Shown piece after piece: positions 25,501-34,943 of a DNA stretch of 37,578 nt; within the stretch, counting starts at the first letter, position 1; the number at the start of each line of letters is the position of its first letter. Source of the DNA: an uncultured Bacteroidota bacterium. GTDB lineage: Bacteria; Bacteroidota; Bacteroidia; Chitinophagales; Chitinophagaceae. The stretch is from positions 1 to 37,578 of the forward strand of contig CAIQHJ010000010.1 in the NCBI GenBank assembly GCA_903871575.1, written 5' to 3'. The position numbers were made by a program, and so were the translations under genes. The notes below the pieces were generated by a model. That model saw only the letters and a program-made list of their open reading frames with translations. It did not search any database and was not told the origin of the DNA.

Positions 25501-26799
25501 ATGATGAATCGGTTATTAACTCTTGTAGCCTTTGGAGCTATCCTAACAAACCTAAGCAGCTGTAGTATGCTTGGTGGAAACAACAAGACCGGAAGCGCGT
25601 TGCCGAACGACGGACAACTGCACGGTGTTGCACCAGCAGAAAGATGGACACCTACCAGACCTCCGGGAATGGTTTATGTCAACTCTGGAACCTTTCACAT
25701 GGGTCCGAGTGATGAAGATGTCAATTACACCTACACCGCAAGAAACAAATCTGTATCCATTAGTGGCTTTTGGATGGACGCCACTGAAATTACCAACAAC
25801 GAGTATCGTCAGTTTACCAATTGGGTTAGAGACTCAATAGGTGCAAAATTGATGGGCTACGTAAAACAAGGACAAGATGGTAATGAATACATCGATTGGA
25901 AAAGAGCATCAACCATCAAATGGGGTGATAAAGCAGTCATCGAAAAAATTGACGCAATCATCGTAACACCAGACAATAGAATTTTTGGTAAGAAAGAATT
26001 AGATGCCAATAAAATTGTCTATCAATCAGAAATATTTGATTACAAAGCAGCAGCTCAAAATAGAGACGTTACCATTCCACGTTCTGCTTTCATTCTAAAA
26101 ACCAAAGTGCCTGTTTATCCAGATTCATTGTGTTGGGTTAGAGACTTTGCTTACTCATACAATGAGCCAATGGCTAAGAAATACTATAGTCACCCAGCAT
26201 ATGGCAATTATCCAGTTGTTGGCGTGAATTGGAAACAAGCTACTGCATTCTGCGAGTGGCGTACACACTACATGAACTCATTTTTAGAGTCGAAGAAAAG
26301 AGCACCAGAATCTAATTTCCGTCTTCCAACAGAAGCACAATGGGAATATGCAGCAAGAGGTGGTCGTTCACAAGCACATTATCCTTGGGGCGGTCCTTAT
26401 TTAAGAAATAAAAAAGGTTGCTTGCTTGCAAACTTTAAACCAGGCAGAGGAAATTATCCAGAAGATGGTGGATTTTATACTGTAAGAGCTGATGCTTATT
26501 GGCCAAATGATTTTGGTCTATACAACATGGCTGGAAACGTTGCAGAATGGACTTCATCATTATACTACGAAGGTGGATACAATTTTCAACATGATATGAA
26601 TCCGGATATTCGTTGGAATGCAAAAGATTCAGATCCTCCAAGAATGAAACGTAAAGTTGTTCGTGGTGGTAGTTGGAAAGACGTTGGTATGTTCCTACAA
26701 TGTGGTACTCGTGCATACGAATACCAAGACACTTCAAAATCTTACGTTGGATTCCGTTGCGTTTTGGATTTACCAGCTCAACCATCAAGACGCAAATAA
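25501..26799 (+). CDS. gldK: Gliding motility / T9SS lipoprotein GldK (FGE-sulfatase-like)
   Basis: Lipobox LTNLSSC; PPGMVYVNSGTFHMGPSDEDV; FRLPTEAQWEYAARGG; MAGNVAEWTSSLYYEGGY; VVRGGSWKD. Confidence 0.97.
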   Translation: MMNRLLTLVAFGAILTNLSSCSMLGGNNKTGSALPNDGQLHGVAPAERWTPTRPPGMVYVNSGTFHMGPSDEDVNYTYTARNKSVSISGFWMDATEITNNEYRQFTNWVRDSIGAKLMGYVKQGQDGNEYIDWKRASTIKWGDKAVIEKIDAIIVTPDNRIFGKKELDANKIVYQSEIFDYKAAAQNRDVTIPRSAFILKTKVPVYPDSLCWVRDFAYSYNEPMAKKYYSHPAYGNYPVVGVNWKQATAFCEWRTHYMNSFLESKKRAPESNFRLPTEAQWEYAARGGRSQAHYPWGGPYLRNKKGCLLANFKPGRGNYPEDGGFYTVRADAYWPNDFGLYNMAGNVAEWTSSLYYEGGYNFQHDMNPDIRWNAKDSDPPRMKRKVVRGGSWKDVGMFLQCGTRAYEYQDTSKSYVGFRCVLDLPAQPSRRK

Positions 26800-26846
26800 C
26801 AAAATTTAACAAGCTCCTATAGCAAATTTCTAAATAAACTTATTGT

Positions 26847-26884
26847 AAAATAACCCACCAAGGAAAGTCTTGATGGGTTATTTT
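26847..26884 (+). terminator. Strong hairpin between gldK and gldL (terminator, attenuator or RNA-stability element)
   Basis: AAAATAACCCA-c-CAAG-GAAAGT-CTTG-a-TGGGTTATTTT: 11 bp, one mismatch, 4 bp, 6-nt loop. Confidence 0.75.
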
Positions 26885-26938
26885 AATAAAAATTGTAAAA
26901 CCAACTTTCAAAACAATAAACCTTAAAATTAAAAAAAC

Positions 26939-27697
26939 ATGTCATCAGTTAGAATCAATCCCAAACTTAGTAAATGGATGGACGTTGCCGTTTCTCTTGC
27001 CGCCGCAGTTGTAATTTTCGGTGCACTACAAAAAATTCTTCATACGCCAATTGCGGATTTATTCCTTCAAATCGGATTGTATTCTGAAGCTGCTATTTTC
27101 GCGATGTATGGTATTGTGTACATCAAGGCTCCAATTATTGATGATCATGCTGGTGCAAGTCATGCAGCTAAGCCAATCAATCCAATGGAAGCAATGGATA
27201 AAATGTTGAAAGATGCAGACATCACTCCTGCAAACATGAAAAAATTAAGCGAAGGTTTCCAAAAATTAGGCACTACTGTTGCTGGAATTTCTGATGTTAG
27301 CGACGTAGTAAAATCTACTAGCGATTTCGGTGCAAAAACTAAAGAAGCTACTGCATCTATTGGTTCAATGTCTGCTGCATTCACTGCAAGTGCAACAACC
27401 ATGGGTTCTTTCAACAACGCTGCTGAAAGTGCAAAAGGTTTCCACGAACAAGTACAAGTATTAACCAAAAACTTAGGTTCATTAAATACCATCTACGAAT
27501 TGGAATTGAAAGAAAGCAACAACCACTTAAAAGCGTTGAACACTTTCTATGGTAAATTGGCTGAAGCTAGTCAGGCAATGACCAGCAGCGTAGAAGATGC
27601 AACTAAAGTAAAAGACCAAATTGCTGCTTTAGCTGGTAATTTAAGCAAATTGAATTCAGTTTATGGCAACATGTTAACTGCAATGCAAGGCAGATAA
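26939..27697 (+). CDS. gldL: Gliding motility / T9SS motor protein GldL
   Basis: Two N-terminal TM helices (MDVAVSLAAAVVIFGALQKI; IGLYSEAAIFAMYGIVYI) followed by a long helical region; located between gldK and gldM. Confidence 0.96.
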   Translation: MSSVRINPKLSKWMDVAVSLAAAVVIFGALQKILHTPIADLFLQIGLYSEAAIFAMYGIVYIKAPIIDDHAGASHAAKPINPMEAMDKMLKDADITPANMKKLSEGFQKLGTTVAGISDVSDVVKSTSDFGAKTKEATASIGSMSAAFTASATTMGSFNNAAESAKGFHEQVQVLTKNLGSLNTIYELELKESNNHLKALNTFYGKLAEASQAMTSSVEDATKVKDQIAALAGNLSKLNSVYGNMLTAMQGR

Positions 27698-27763
27698 TCT
27701 TTTAGATTAACTGATAATAAAACTATCCAAACAATATTTATAAAATTATTAATCTAACAAGTT

Positions 27764-29299
27764 ATGGCTTTACCCGCAGAGCCCCGGCAGAAGATGATCA
27801 ACCTCATGTACTTAGTGCTTACAGCGCTATTGGCATTGAACGTTTCATCAGAAATCTTACACGCATTCGAGGTTGTAGACAAAAGTTTAGTTACATCAAA
27901 CTCTAACTTAAAAACCGCTAACCAAACATTATACACTTCTTTGGAAGCCAAATTAAATGATCCAATGACAGCTGAAAAAGCTAAGCCATGGTATGCAAAA
28001 GCAGAACAGGCAAAGAAAATTTCAGCTACAATGGATGATTATATTAATCTATTAAAAACAGAATTAAAAGCAGAAGCTGGAGCCAAAATGGTAGAAGTAG
28101 ATGGCAAGCAAGTTGAAGAATACAAAAAAGACGACTTGGAAGCTGCTACACGCCTTTTCGGAAACGAAAAAGGTGGAAAAAACAAAGGCCCTGAATTTGA
28201 AGCAAAGTTGAAAAAATTCAGAGAAGATATGTTAGGTATCGATCCTGAAATCAGAAAAGAATTTGAAAAAACCTTTCCAGTTGATGCCAGCTACAAAACC
28301 GTTGGACAAGATGGTAAAGAAAAAGATTTCACATTTGCTTATTTCCACATGACGCCTACGGTTGCTGCGATTACGTTATTAAGTAAGTTCCAGAACAACG
28401 TTAAGAATGCGGAAAATCAAATTGTAACCTATTGCCACAACCAAGTTGGTGCGGTAAAAGTTGTATACGATCAGTTTGCTGCATTGGTTGGACAAAGTTC
28501 TAACTACGTGATGCCTGGTGAAGAAATCGAAATCAATGCCGGTGTTGGTGCTTATAGTAAAGCAGCAGCTCCTCAAATTTCAATCGGTGGTGCATCAATG
28601 CCAATTGGCGACGATGGCAGAGCAACTTCAAAATTCAAAGTAAGCGGTTCAGGTTCTAAATCAGTGCCTGTAAATGTTACCTACACCAAACCTGATGGAA
28701 CAAAAGAAACCAAAACTTTCGAAGTAAAGTACACCGTAGGTACTCCTGGTGGAGCAGCGGTTATGCCTGATAAAATGAATGTATTTTACATGGGCGTAGA
28801 CAACCCGGTTACCATTGGTTCTCCTACAGGTTGGGATAAAACAACCGTTTCAATGTCTAATGGTACCATCACTGGACAAGGTTCCGTAAGAACTGTTCGT
28901 GTAAGCACTATTGGTAAAGCAAGCATTACGGTAGTTGCAGATAAAAAACCTACCACTTTTGAATTCAGAGTGAAAAGAATTCCAGATCCAATCTTCAAAG
29001 TGGGTTCTGGTAAAGTGAGAATGCCAGCAGTAGAATTTAAAAATCAACAATATTGCCGTGCAGAATTGGAAAATTTCGACTTTGATTTAAGATTTAGCAT
29101 CGTAGGTGCTACGGTTTATTTCTCTGGCGCTAACTTCCCTAATCCTGTTCCAGCAACATTAACCGGTAACAACTTATCTGGACTTGCTTCTTTAATTCAA
29201 AGATGTGGACCAGGTTCTGTTATCACTTTTGACAATGTGAAAGTTCAAGGTCCAGATGGTCCAAGAACAATTGAAGGAAAATCTATTGCCCTATACTAA
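27764..29299 (+). CDS. gldM: Gliding motility / T9SS motor protein GldM
   Basis: MALPAEPRQKMINLMYLVLTALLALNVSSEILHAFEVVDKSL is the canonical GldM N-terminus; C-terminal domains match the family layout. Confidence 0.97.
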   Translation: MALPAEPRQKMINLMYLVLTALLALNVSSEILHAFEVVDKSLVTSNSNLKTANQTLYTSLEAKLNDPMTAEKAKPWYAKAEQAKKISATMDDYINLLKTELKAEAGAKMVEVDGKQVEEYKKDDLEAATRLFGNEKGGKNKGPEFEAKLKKFREDMLGIDPEIRKEFEKTFPVDASYKTVGQDGKEKDFTFAYFHMTPTVAAITLLSKFQNNVKNAENQIVTYCHNQVGAVKVVYDQFAALVGQSSNYVMPGEEIEINAGVGAYSKAAAPQISIGGASMPIGDDGRATSKFKVSGSGSKSVPVNVTYTKPDGTKETKTFEVKYTVGTPGGAAVMPDKMNVFYMGVDNPVTIGSPTGWDKTTVSMSNGTITGQGSVRTVRVSTIGKASITVVADKKPTTFEFRVKRIPDPIFKVGSGKVRMPAVEFKNQQYCRAELENFDFDLRFSIVGATVYFSGANFPNPVPATLTGNNLSGLASLIQRCGPGSVITFDNVKVQGPDGPRTIEGKSIALY

Positions 29300-29407
29300 A
29301 ATTTGATTTTGGTGTGATGCAATAATAAAATCTTCAATTTGACGTTTGCTCATTTGAAGATGATCATGCTTCACACCAGAAAAAAATTAAAAACAAAACT
29401 AAATATC

Positions 29408-30442
29408 ATGAAAAGTACGATGCTCAAGTTTTTATTGTTGGCTGTAATATTTTGTGGCGCTGCAAACATGGCAGAAGCACAAAAGAAAAAGTCTACCAAA
29501 AGAACAACGAAGCCAAAGACAAAAGCCAAAATTCAGGCTAGTGCACCGTCTGAAGATACAGCAGCTGCTGCCATCGCAGCACCTCCAGCGCCTCCAGCAA
29601 AAGATAGTCTTCCTATTAAACAAGTGAAGCCTTCTCTTCGCCCAGATGAAGCTGTAGAAACTGCTGCATTAAGAGACAGAACACCTTTGCCTTACGAACA
29701 TCTACGTGCTGATGATGCGGTTTATAGACACAGAATTTGGAGAGAAATTGATACCAGAGAAAAAATCAACCAAACATTTTCTTATGCTGCTGATGCAGAC
29801 AATGGTAATCAACGCTTCATCTCTATCATATTACAATCGCTTGCCGATAGCACAAAAGGCATCACCGCCTTCTCTGCGTTGGATGATAGATTTACTACAC
29901 CAATGACGATGGGTGATATCGCCAAAGCAGTATTGGGTGAAGAAATCGATGTTCCACTTCAAGACTCATTAGGTAACATCATCGGAACCAAAAAAATGAG
30001 AAACGAAGTTAACCTTGATTCTTTCTACAAATTCCATGTAAAAGAAGAAGTTATTTTCGATAAAGAAAGCTCAAGATTATTCTGGAGAATCTTAGGTATT
30101 GCACCACTTAAAAGAATCGTAACGTCTACTGGATTAGATCTTGGTTTTACACCTTTGTTTTGGGTTTACTATCCAGATATGAGACCAATTTTTGCAAGCT
30201 ATGAAGTGTACAACGGTAAAAATTATGGCGGCAGAATGAGCTGGGAAGAATTGTTTGAAAGCAGAATGTTTTCTGGCAGAATCATCAAAAGCTCAATGGA
30301 CAACCCAAGAGATATCAGAATTGAAGATGTGAAAGGTATGGATGACAAAGAAAATCCAAACCATTTATTGCATCGCTTATTCGAAGGTGAAACAATCAAA
30401 GAGAAAATCTTTACTTACGAACAAGATTTGTGGTCTTACTAA
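29408..30442 (+). CDS. gldN: Gliding motility / T9SS ring protein GldN
   Basis: DDAVYRHRIWREIDTREKINQTFSYAAD; LDLGFTPLFWVYYPDMRPIFASYEVYN; start at the ATG at 29408, giving a signal peptide. Confidence 0.95.
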   Translation: MKSTMLKFLLLAVIFCGAANMAEAQKKKSTKRTTKPKTKAKIQASAPSEDTAAAAIAAPPAPPAKDSLPIKQVKPSLRPDEAVETAALRDRTPLPYEHLRADDAVYRHRIWREIDTREKINQTFSYAADADNGNQRFISIILQSLADSTKGITAFSALDDRFTTPMTMGDIAKAVLGEEIDVPLQDSLGNIIGTKKMRNEVNLDSFYKFHVKEEVIFDKESSRLFWRILGIAPLKRIVTSTGLDLGFTPLFWVYYPDMRPIFASYEVYNGKNYGGRMSWEELFESRMFSGRIIKSSMDNPRDIRIEDVKGMDDKENPNHLLHRLFEGETIKEKIFTYEQDLWSY

Positions 30443-32302: not shown

Positions 32303-32890
32303 TTATTTCCACTGATAGGTTGTTTCACTGACCATCATTTTTTGTGTGGCATCTCCTTCAGCAATATAGGTTTTTTTACAAAGGCTGCCCGGTATCCAAG
32401 TAAGTTGAAGGGTAGTGTTGTTGGGTAACGTCTTTACCAAATATATGCGCTCTACTTCGTTTGTTTCTGGTTGAATGTAGATGTCCCAATGTTGCCAAAG
32501 TATTGTATCTGGTAACATTTCTTTGGCATCATAACTCAAGGTAATGGCATTCAAGGTTTGGTCTTCAAATTTTGTTTCCTTGAAATATCTAGCAAGTGTT
32601 GTTGAGTCAATATTCGGCATTACGAAATCTGAAAAAATACTATCCATTTGGTTGGCAGCTACCAAAATGCTATCTGTTTGCTGATTTGCTGTATGATAGG
32701 CGGTTATTTTTTTATGTGCATTTTTAATCTCTACAATTTGACCTTCCAAATATGCGGTAACCGGAAAAAAAGAAGGCGCAACTGTTGCAGTATCTGTTGC
32801 TGGAATTTCAGTTGTTGTAGGTTCGTTTTTTTTATGTTGGCACGATGACAATATAACAACCATTACCATCGCGATGATTTTTATTTGCAT
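32303..32890 (-). CDS. Hypothetical lipoprotein
   Basis: MQIKIIAMVMVVILSSCQHKK gives a lipobox (LSSC); start chosen at 32890 rather than 32920. Confidence 0.75.
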   Translation of the reverse strand: MQIKIIAMVMVVILSSCQHKKNEPTTTEIPATDTATVAPSFFPVTAYLEGQIVEIKNAHKKITAYHTANQQTDSILVAANQMDSIFSDFVMPNIDSTTLARYFKETKFEDQTLNAITLSYDAKEMLPDTILWQHWDIYIQPETNEVERIYLVKTLPNNTTLQLTWIPGSLCKKTYIAEGDATQKMMVSETTYQWK

Positions 32891-32989
32891 GTAAGCTGAT
32901 TTGTTGTTTTTATTTGTCACATGGTTTGCCTCAATGTGGATGGCATTTCATGTCCAATAGATTTGTTGCTAAAAGGGATTCTACTCAAC

Positions 32990-34264
32990 TTAGAAGTTCT
33001 TCGTAACACCCAACTTGATTCCAAAATTATATAATTTCTCACTGTAAATATAACTTTTATCGAAGGAGGATAAGAGTTGATATCTGAATTGCGGACCGGC
33101 ATTGATGACGGCCCCATTTTTTAATTTATAACTCAGGTAGGTTTCAATGCTGGTGTTGATGTTCCACTTCCGCACTAAAAAAGGGTCTTCAACAATGTTT
33201 TTCATGTCGTTGGTGACCATGATTTTATTGCCACCAAACAAATAACTGGGTTGTATAGTGGCGCCGGCAAACCATTGAAAATTGTCGTTTCCGGTTAATT
33301 CAAATTCGGTTCCAATGGGTAATGATATTTGGTAAGAACGGTTGTTGTTTTCAACTGCTCTTTGATTGAGCAATGTATTGTTTTCGGTATTGAGTAAACC
33401 GGTATTGTCGTTGATTGATTTGGATGCTGCTTTTAGATTTTCTGCATCAGTGCTGTTGCCATATTGCGCAAAATTAAATTGCATACCAGCTTTCAACCGC
33501 ATGTATTTGGAGATGTTCATTAAAAAAGCGCCACCAGCTTCTAAATTCCAGGATGGACCGGTATAATAAGCACTTGCATTTTCATTGCTGTTGGCATTCA
33601 TTCCCTCGGTGTTGTTCAATGCCACCAAAGGATCCGTATTTCTAATGGTGCTTCGATAACCAAATGAAGGTGTGGCGTAAAACTGGTACGCATAACCGTT
33701 ATTAGATTTTGTAGGAGTAGAAACTTGTACCGGATTGTTTCTACTTGCTATGTATTGATTTGAATTAACAGTAGCGTTCAATCGAAGTGGTGCATTGATA
33801 ATGTTCGATGCTTGGTCAATTGCAATCGAAGTTGTCATTTGTATTTCACCCAACGCTGTTGCTTTTTCTGTTTCTATGTGTAAGAAATCTTTATCAGCAA
33901 TGGATTGCTGCGGCATCATATTTTTTTGACTGGCATTTGTTTTGTTTTCAAATGCTGTTGCCTCATTTTTTAGAAAGTTGCCATCAACTTTGTTCTGCGA
34001 TAAAGTTATTTCATTGAGCGTTGTATTTTGTTTTACAGACACAACGGTTGCAATATGATTTGATGATGTGATAGGGGTTGATTTTTTTTGCATGAACATA
34101 ACGAGCATAAGCATCAACATAATGGTAGTGACAGAAGGCAATTTTCTGCCGGGATACATATTGTTATAAATGCTATTCCACAATTTTATAGAAGGACGCA
34201 ACTTAAAATCTGCTGTTGCTTCTTTCAAAAATTGTTCAAAATTTCCAGGTGCGTTGTTCTCCAT
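32990..34264 (-). CDS. Single-TM protein with cytoplasmic head and C-terminal outer-membrane-type beta-barrel domain
   Basis: Head FEQFLKEATADFKLRPSIKLWNSIYNNMY, TM PSVTTIMLMLMLVMFMQ, Asn/Thr-rich linker, barrel-like C-terminus (YQISLPIGTEFELTGNDNFQWFAGATIQPSYLFGG ... FGIKLGVTKNF). Next to a sigma factor gene. Confidence 0.75.
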   Translation of the reverse strand: MENNAPGNFEQFLKEATADFKLRPSIKLWNSIYNNMYPGRKLPSVTTIMLMLMLVMFMQKKSTPITSSNHIATVVSVKQNTTLNEITLSQNKVDGNFLKNEATAFENKTNASQKNMMPQQSIADKDFLHIETEKATALGEIQMTTSIAIDQASNIINAPLRLNATVNSNQYIASRNNPVQVSTPTKSNNGYAYQFYATPSFGYRSTIRNTDPLVALNNTEGMNANSNENASAYYTGPSWNLEAGGAFLMNISKYMRLKAGMQFNFAQYGNSTDAENLKAASKSINDNTGLLNTENNTLLNQRAVENNNRSYQISLPIGTEFELTGNDNFQWFAGATIQPSYLFGGNKIMVTNDMKNIVEDPFLVRKWNINTSIETYLSYKLKNGAVINAGPQFRYQLLSSFDKSYIYSEKLYNFGIKLGVTKNF

Positions 34265-34291
34265 GATTAAATTTCATTGGACACTGGCTTA

Positions 34292-34870
34292 TTAGCCATG
34301 TGTTGCTTTGCCAATTGTTTTTTGTTTAATTGGTGACGAAATGATTCCTTTTTTGATGAGGAGATTTTCTAGCATACCCTTAGCTCTGGCATACTGACTT
34401 CTACTGGTTCCTTCTTCAATCTCAAGCATACTCGCAATTTCTTTGTGCGAATAACCTTCAATGGCATATAAGTTCAATACCGTTTTATAGCCAACCGGCA
34501 ACGAGCGAATGCATTCTACAATTTGTTTGGCTTGTATTATGGCTGGAATAAAATCCTCATTGCTGTGTAAATATGCCGCATTGGAAATGTCAACAAATTC
34601 GTTGAAGCGTTTATTTTTTTTAAGGTGGTTGATACAGGTGTGCACCATCACACGCCTAATCCATCCTTCCAATGATCCTTCATTTCTAAATTGATGAAGC
34701 TGAGCAAATACTCTAATGAATCCTTCTTGCAACATGTCTTCTGCGTCCATTCTGTTTTTGGCATAGCGATAACATACTCCCAACATTTTGGGACTGTATG
34801 TTTGATATAAAAATTCTTGTGCTGCTTTGTTGTTCAATAAACTATCCTGCAGCATTTGCGCTTCTGTCAT
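34292..34870 (-). CDS. RNA polymerase ECF-type sigma factor
   Basis: AQEFLYQTYSPKMLGVCYRYAKNRMDAEDMLQEGFIRVFAQLHQFRNEGSLEGWIRRVMVHTCINHLKK (region 2) and LPVGYKTVLNLYAIEGYSHKEIASMLEIEEGTSRSQYARAKGML (region 4). Confidence 0.95.
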   Translation of the reverse strand: MTEAQMLQDSLLNNKAAQEFLYQTYSPKMLGVCYRYAKNRMDAEDMLQEGFIRVFAQLHQFRNEGSLEGWIRRVMVHTCINHLKKNKRFNEFVDISNAAYLHSNEDFIPAIIQAKQIVECIRSLPVGYKTVLNLYAIEGYSHKEIASMLEIEEGTSRSQYARAKGMLENLLIKKGIISSPIKQKTIGKATHG

Positions 34871-34943
34871 AGACTAAAAAAGTACATTAAATATAGGTCA
34901 AAATCCGCTCAATTCATGTAAAAATTTAGAGGATGAACAACGT

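Follow-up and report, generated by a model that had tools for sequence, protein, structure and literature searches.

What is made by the gene that directly follows an ECF sigma factor when its product, standing where an anti-sigma factor is usual, ends like an outer-membrane protein? The question is raised by the window analysed here, the whole 37,578-nucleotide stretch of contig CAIQHJ010000010.1 from an uncultured member of the Chitinophagaceae. A sequence-only reading had proposed that the product's head binds the sigma factor and its C-terminal barrel sits in the outer membrane, with a downstream lipoprotein as a possible third component. The three open reading frames, their frames and their common minus strand are as that reading described them, and the features are as follows.

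34918..34922 (-): TTTAC where relatives have the GCAGC -35 box, which is lost here (aligned by eye with L034)
34888..34906 (-): residual -10 region of the family's ECF promoter, GGATTTTGACCTATATTTA, which in the congener L034 reads GGATTTTGTCTATATTTA (orthologue upstream comparison, aligned by eye)
34292..34870 (-): 192-aa ECF sigma factor, the predicted cognate sigma (Pfam, orthologue identity, helix comparison)
32990..34264 (-): fusion protein, predicted anti-sigma (conserved linkage, AlphaFold, profile matches)
34142..34264 (-): its two-helix head in the cytoplasm, residues 1-41, predicted to bind sigma (AlphaFold, W29, head profile)
34082..34141 (-): its inner-membrane TM helix, residues 42-61 (AlphaFold helix, hydrophobic run)
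33695..34081 (-): its disordered periplasmic tether of 129 aa, residues 62-190, rich in Asn, Thr and Ser (pLDDT, length, composition)
32993..33694 (-): its 8-stranded outer-membrane beta-barrel, residues 191-424 (AlphaFold pLDDT, Foldseek)
32303..32890 (-): conserved lipoprotein, 195 aa, lipobox Cys17 (Cys17 invariance, AlphaFold pLDDT)

I put at roughly 85% the probability that the first two genes encode a sigma/anti-sigma switch of the Das/Dma type (EcfO/Reo type), working by the steps set out in the last section.

Linkage, architecture and kinship of the pair

The sigma factor carries the Pfam domains Sigma70_r2 (3e-18) and Sigma70_r4_2 (2.3e-14) and is 61-65% identical to its orthologues; NCBIfam returned only generic ECF matches, the subfamily models staying under their cut-offs. 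The fusion gene starts 27 bp downstream. When relatives from the same taxonomic family were sought with the fusion protein alone, all 15 independent full-length ones had a sigma gene directly upstream; these sigmas share 60-69% identity with that of the window in 14 cases and 44% in the remaining one. A search by sigma alignment, which covered named Chitinophagaceae genomes including Ferruginibacter, Niastella, Limnovirga and Longitalea, found 80 loci, 77 of them with enough downstream sequence, and sigma is followed by fusion in 76 of the 77 at a median gap of 32 bases. The more remote matches, some of them paralogues within the family and others from different families and classes, adjoin a sigma gene in 20 cases out of 20. 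A lack of conserved linkage was what the sequence-only reading had thought would speak against it, and it had suggested looking for the pair in other genomes; the pair is found across the phylum, and the linkage is kept. In other classes of the phylum, L174 and L177 encode a sigma factor and a head-TM-tether protein with a different head, for example PIERLFQKKAEEYDISYQEKDWLKLEKRLD.

An AlphaFold2 monomer model of the 424-residue fusion protein, made from an alignment with 70 relatives, agrees with the layout of head, single hydrophobic helix, long linker and C-terminal barrel that had been read from the letters. The head, which contains FEQFLKEATADFKLRPSIKLWNSIYNNMY (residues 9-37), is predicted to form helices at 8-19 and 26-36 with moderate confidence (block-mean pLDDT about 58-74), and the TM helix at 42-61 matches the hydrophobic run seen in the sequence. 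Residues 62-190 are unstructured, mostly with pLDDT below 50, and residues 191-423 form eight strands, mostly at pLDDT 90-98. In a Foldseek search of solved structures the strands matched OmpA, NspA, OmpX, OmpW and other outer-membrane barrels, so that the prediction is an outer-membrane barrel instead of the soluble periplasmic fold that would have told against the proposal. The Pfam model OMP_b-brl_2 is sub-threshold on the window's protein (4.8e-5) and matches 50 of the 71 alignment members. The terminal phenylalanine that had been taken as a mark of the barrel is not a family-wide trait, occurring in only 9 of the 71. Across the same members the tether is rich in Asn, Ala, Ser and Thr, with Cys nearly absent, and its length of 114-266 residues is enough to cross the periplasm.

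The classical route by which ECF anti-sigma factors are activated is regulated proteolysis, and this favours an account in which the protein spans a single membrane: the head binds sigma, the TM helix anchors it, and only a cleaved barrel reaches the outer membrane. Two sigma-adjacent proteins of about 250 aa (L175:2193-2933(+) and L176:2065-2823(-)) have the same head and TM helix and no barrel; they are a single-membrane variant of the family, and indicate that the head can work without a barrel. I nevertheless consider the single-membrane account unlikely for the window's protein, given the eight high-confidence strands with their OmpA-type structural matches, a tether that never falls below 114 residues in 71 members, and the dual-membrane topology of the published Reo and Dma models (PMC13088901, PMC9308784, PMC13114119).

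A further possibility is that the fusion protein is an OmpA-like outer-membrane protein with an uncleaved signal anchor, a sigma-regulated neighbour with no anti-sigma role. No cleavable signal peptide is evident in its sequence, as the sequence-only reading had also noted, and outer-membrane proteins are common targets of sigma factors. Against this, Trp29 of the head is the only residue outside the barrel that is invariant in the 71 sequences, Pro24 and Ser25 are nearly so, the head matches the heads of other groups and persists in the barrel-less form beside sigma, and in published work heads built in this way are those of proven anti-sigma factors (PMC13088901; PMC9308784, PMC13114119 for Reo). 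Together these make the signal-anchor account very improbable. Neither Pfam nor NCBIfam supplied an anti-sigma model for the head, and when the anti-sigma and lipoprotein profiles were run against PDB sequences, the only matches were due to chance or to signal peptides.

The architecture itself has been described. Dma1 and Dma2 of B. thetaiotaomicron form an already characterised class, defined by an N-terminal sigma-binding domain, a TM helix, a disordered tether, a C-terminal barrel and an adjacent ECF21 sigma factor (PMC13088901), and their equivalent, Reo of P. vulgatus and B. fragilis, has been described likewise (PMC9308784, PMC13114119). Judged by sequence, the window's fusion protein matches every feature of the published class that can be tested in this way, the ECF21 assignment of the sigma factor lying outside that match.

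Kinship was assessed in presumably Bacteroidales genomes, recognised by the marker domain NigD_N (control: Bacteroides ihuae, positive). The sigma profile served to find their sigma genes, and the genes that follow were then read. Sixteen loci have the same architecture after the sigma gene. Barrel profiles aligned at 97.8-99.5% probability, the match for the window's barrel being 97.8%. The head profiles were compared alone by hhalign, with 200 column shuffles as control, and none of the 200 reached the real score: the window's group against the NigD-genome heads, the weakest of three comparisons, gave 23.4 (shuffle maximum 11.2); heads from other genomes of the same class, presumably flavobacterial, gave 40.8 (14.3); and the third comparison gave 41.3 (10.9). 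These profile matches point to kinship with the same kind of protein, the comparators being NigD-genome homologues that stand in for Dma1, Dma2 and Reo. Dma1 is reportedly the subject of a 2024 PNAS paper. Also in NigD-carrying genomes, two short single-TM proteins of 178-182 aa follow an ECF sigma gene (L192:3669-4205(+) and L194:2499-3047(-)); they do not match the Dma profile and are possibly another type of anti-sigma beside nigD.

The window's fusion protein is thus an environmental member of a known family and not a new kind of regulator, because its architecture was described in gut Bacteroides between 2022 and 2026 (Reo, Dma1-3). The earlier suggestion was that such fusions may be common but poorly characterised; their topology has by now been characterised. 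What is gained is the extension of a dual membrane-spanning anti-sigma family, which the literature found treats in gut Bacteroidales only, to a large environmental family.

The lipoprotein and the conserved neighbourhood

The lipoprotein frame as first drawn ran over 32303-32920 from a GTG at 32920. The ATG at 32890 is the more likely start, because the resulting lipobox has a Cys17 that 36 aligned relatives keep without exception. The fold is confidently predicted (AlphaFold pLDDT 88), and its structural matches in Foldseek are weak: the LolA/lipoprotein-sorting-like 3bk5 (probability 0.99, E 0.026, TM 0.38), along with 4mxt and 8cgm, and none below E 0.001. An identification as RseB-like was rejected, these matches being too weak.

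Upstream of the sigma gene the window holds a gene with a Pfam haem-binding domain and an open reading frame that reads as phosphoglycerate mutase (pgm, named from its sequence). Downstream lie uvrC and then the convergent type IX secretion and gliding genes gldK, gldL, gldM and gldN (25501-30442(+)). Relatives keep the order pgm, sigma, fusion, lipoprotein, uvrC and then gldN.

Is the lipoprotein a dedicated partner of the switch, for example an RseB-like modulator? It lies directly after the fusion gene in 61 of the 71 loci with room for it, its LolA/lipoprotein-sorting-like matches point weakly the same way, and a third gene, BT_1557, of function not known, likewise belongs to the dma2 operon as published (PMC13088901). 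Such a three-component system is nonetheless doubtful. Fifty-two of 61 family genomes encode the lipoprotein, and where the fusion is absent or only weakly matched it stands without sigma or fusion beside it, mostly next to uvrC (L225, L226, L227, L229, L232, L233), while in L238 and L239 the sigma-Dma pair runs straight to uvrC without a lipoprotein. The lack of any match below E 0.001 also counts against a modulator of this kind, and the adjacency of lipoprotein and Dma is explained by the conserved pgm...uvrC neighbourhood. Because each is found without the other, the lipoprotein is not an obligate component of the switch, contrary to the suggestion of a third component, and its membership of the switch should not be taken for granted, though it is probably co-transcribed with the pair.

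In the window and in the flanks of L049-L128 the sigma-Dma operon keeps uvrC and gldK-gldN as neighbours, a conserved synteny of the environmental members beside type IX secretion core genes. An ECF sigma factor controls such genes in P. gingivalis and has been proposed to do so in F. psychrophilum (PMC9723704). With the neighbourhood conserved and this precedent elsewhere, a functional link between the operon and the type IX secretion genes would be worth a test.

Self-promoters and recognition helices

Upstream of the sigma gene, 67 of 80 sequences contain GCAGC-N16/17-TGTC, and a version that demands TTGYC is found in 55 of the 80 upstream regions, against 0.00025 in shuffles. Because the spacing and the TGTCTA -10 element resemble ECF promoters such as those of E. 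coli sigma-E, the sigma factor probably activates its own operon in these relatives. A strict search of 61 family genomes for GCAGC-N15/16-TTGTCTAWWT gave 25 matches, against one in the reversed control. About half lie directly before sigma, and most of the others have no gene start just downstream; I therefore infer no wider regulon.

The -35 box of this conserved ECF-type self-promoter tracks the recognition helix of the sigma factor, and both observations are new here. Helices of the form ESTSRSQ(Y/F)TRA pair with GCAGC in 90 cases and with GCAAC in none, whereas helices in which Gly, Asn or Ile replaces the first Ser (EG, EN or EI type) pair with GCAAC in 13 cases and with GCAGC in none. 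For Ser versus Gly helices Fisher's test gives 8e-11, a value that ignores shared ancestry, and for this reason contrasts within single genomes weigh more. A second sigma-Dma pair, paralogous to the first, is present in several Chitinophagaceae (L166, L167, L168, L169, L170), and four of these five, L168 being the exception, have a GCAAC-type self-promoter. Both types thereby occur in one genome four times, the orthologue with GCAGC and the paralogue with GCAAC (L044/L166, L036/L167, L038/L169 and L045/L170). Three sigma factors from NigD-carrying genomes (L178, L179, L181) likewise combine an EST helix with GCAGC. Recognition-helix residues set against the -35 box offer a testable promoter code for finding sigma regulons across Bacteroidota.

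The window's own sigma factor departs from its family, having the recognition helix EGTSRSQYARAK (EGTSRSQYARA) where the family has ESTSRSQYTRAK. Neither a GCAGC nor a GCAAC box occurs in the 150 bases upstream of it, and with the -35 box lost the self-promoter looks decayed. A GCAAC-type scan of the window's own small genome (2.3 Mb in 279 contigs, 95% complete) gave nine matches and its reversed control six, which is no excess. One tentative reading, which I hold to be somewhat less probable than its opposite, is that the switch has been rewired: with the helix changed from ESTSRSQYTRAK to EGTSRSQYARAK, and GCAGC lost without a GCAAC in its place, the sigma factor would be transcribed by read-through from upstream genes and have different targets, without positive feedback.

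Proposed mechanism and comparison with known systems

In the Das/Dma-type reading, homology and linkage suggest that the 41-residue head would keep the ECF sigma factor at the inner membrane in an inactive state. Residues 42-61 would cross that membrane, the 129-residue tether would span the periplasm, and the predicted 8-stranded barrel would sit in the outer membrane. A change there, probably envelope stress or failed insertion of the barrel, could be passed down the tether and free the sigma factor, which in most relatives would amplify its own operon from GCAGC-N16/17-TGTC. The absence of both known -35 boxes from the window's promoter counts against this positive-feedback step in the window itself. 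Because its self-promoter has lost the -35 box, amplification is probably weak or absent in this genome, and transcription of the operon may come by read-through from the haem-binding-protein gene upstream. On the inducing signal the present analysis adds nothing to the envelope-stress sensing that has been proposed for Reo (PMC9308784, PMC13114119). Loss of the anti-sigma factor activates the sigma regulon in Bacteroides and Phocaeicola relatives, as published.

Among known systems, FecR/FecA cell-surface signalling resembles the window's pair in coupling an outer-membrane barrel to an ECF sigma factor through an inner-membrane anti-sigma. There, however, the barrel is a separate TonB-dependent transducer, whereas the window has one polypeptide with an 8-stranded OmpA-like barrel. 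A system of the FecR/FecA type was rejected on the ground that the OmpA-like barrel is within the same protein and that no TonB-dependent receptor is found among the Pfam-scanned neighbours of the pair.

Reo with EcfO is closer, being a large anti-sigma factor that reaches from the cytoplasm to the surface with a C-terminal outer-membrane barrel, encoded downstream of its sigma gene. The EcfO regulon differs in including nigD genes, and NigD_N was not detected in the window's genome. Dma1 and Dma2, with Das1 and Das2, share the same order of head, TM helix, tether and barrel and the adjacent ECF sigma gene, and the Dma2 operon has three genes, as in the window. Their host belongs to another order of Bacteroidota, and no link to vesiculation or a glycan locus is known for the window's pair. 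Finally, Dma3 of B. thetaiotaomicron belongs to the same family as the window's fusion protein but has its sigma factor fused to the anti-sigma, where the window keeps separate genes. A Dma3-like single gene was also seen in a NigD-carrying genome (L196:1263-2906(-)), its 547-aa product joining an ECF sigma domain, a TM helix, a tether and a barrel.
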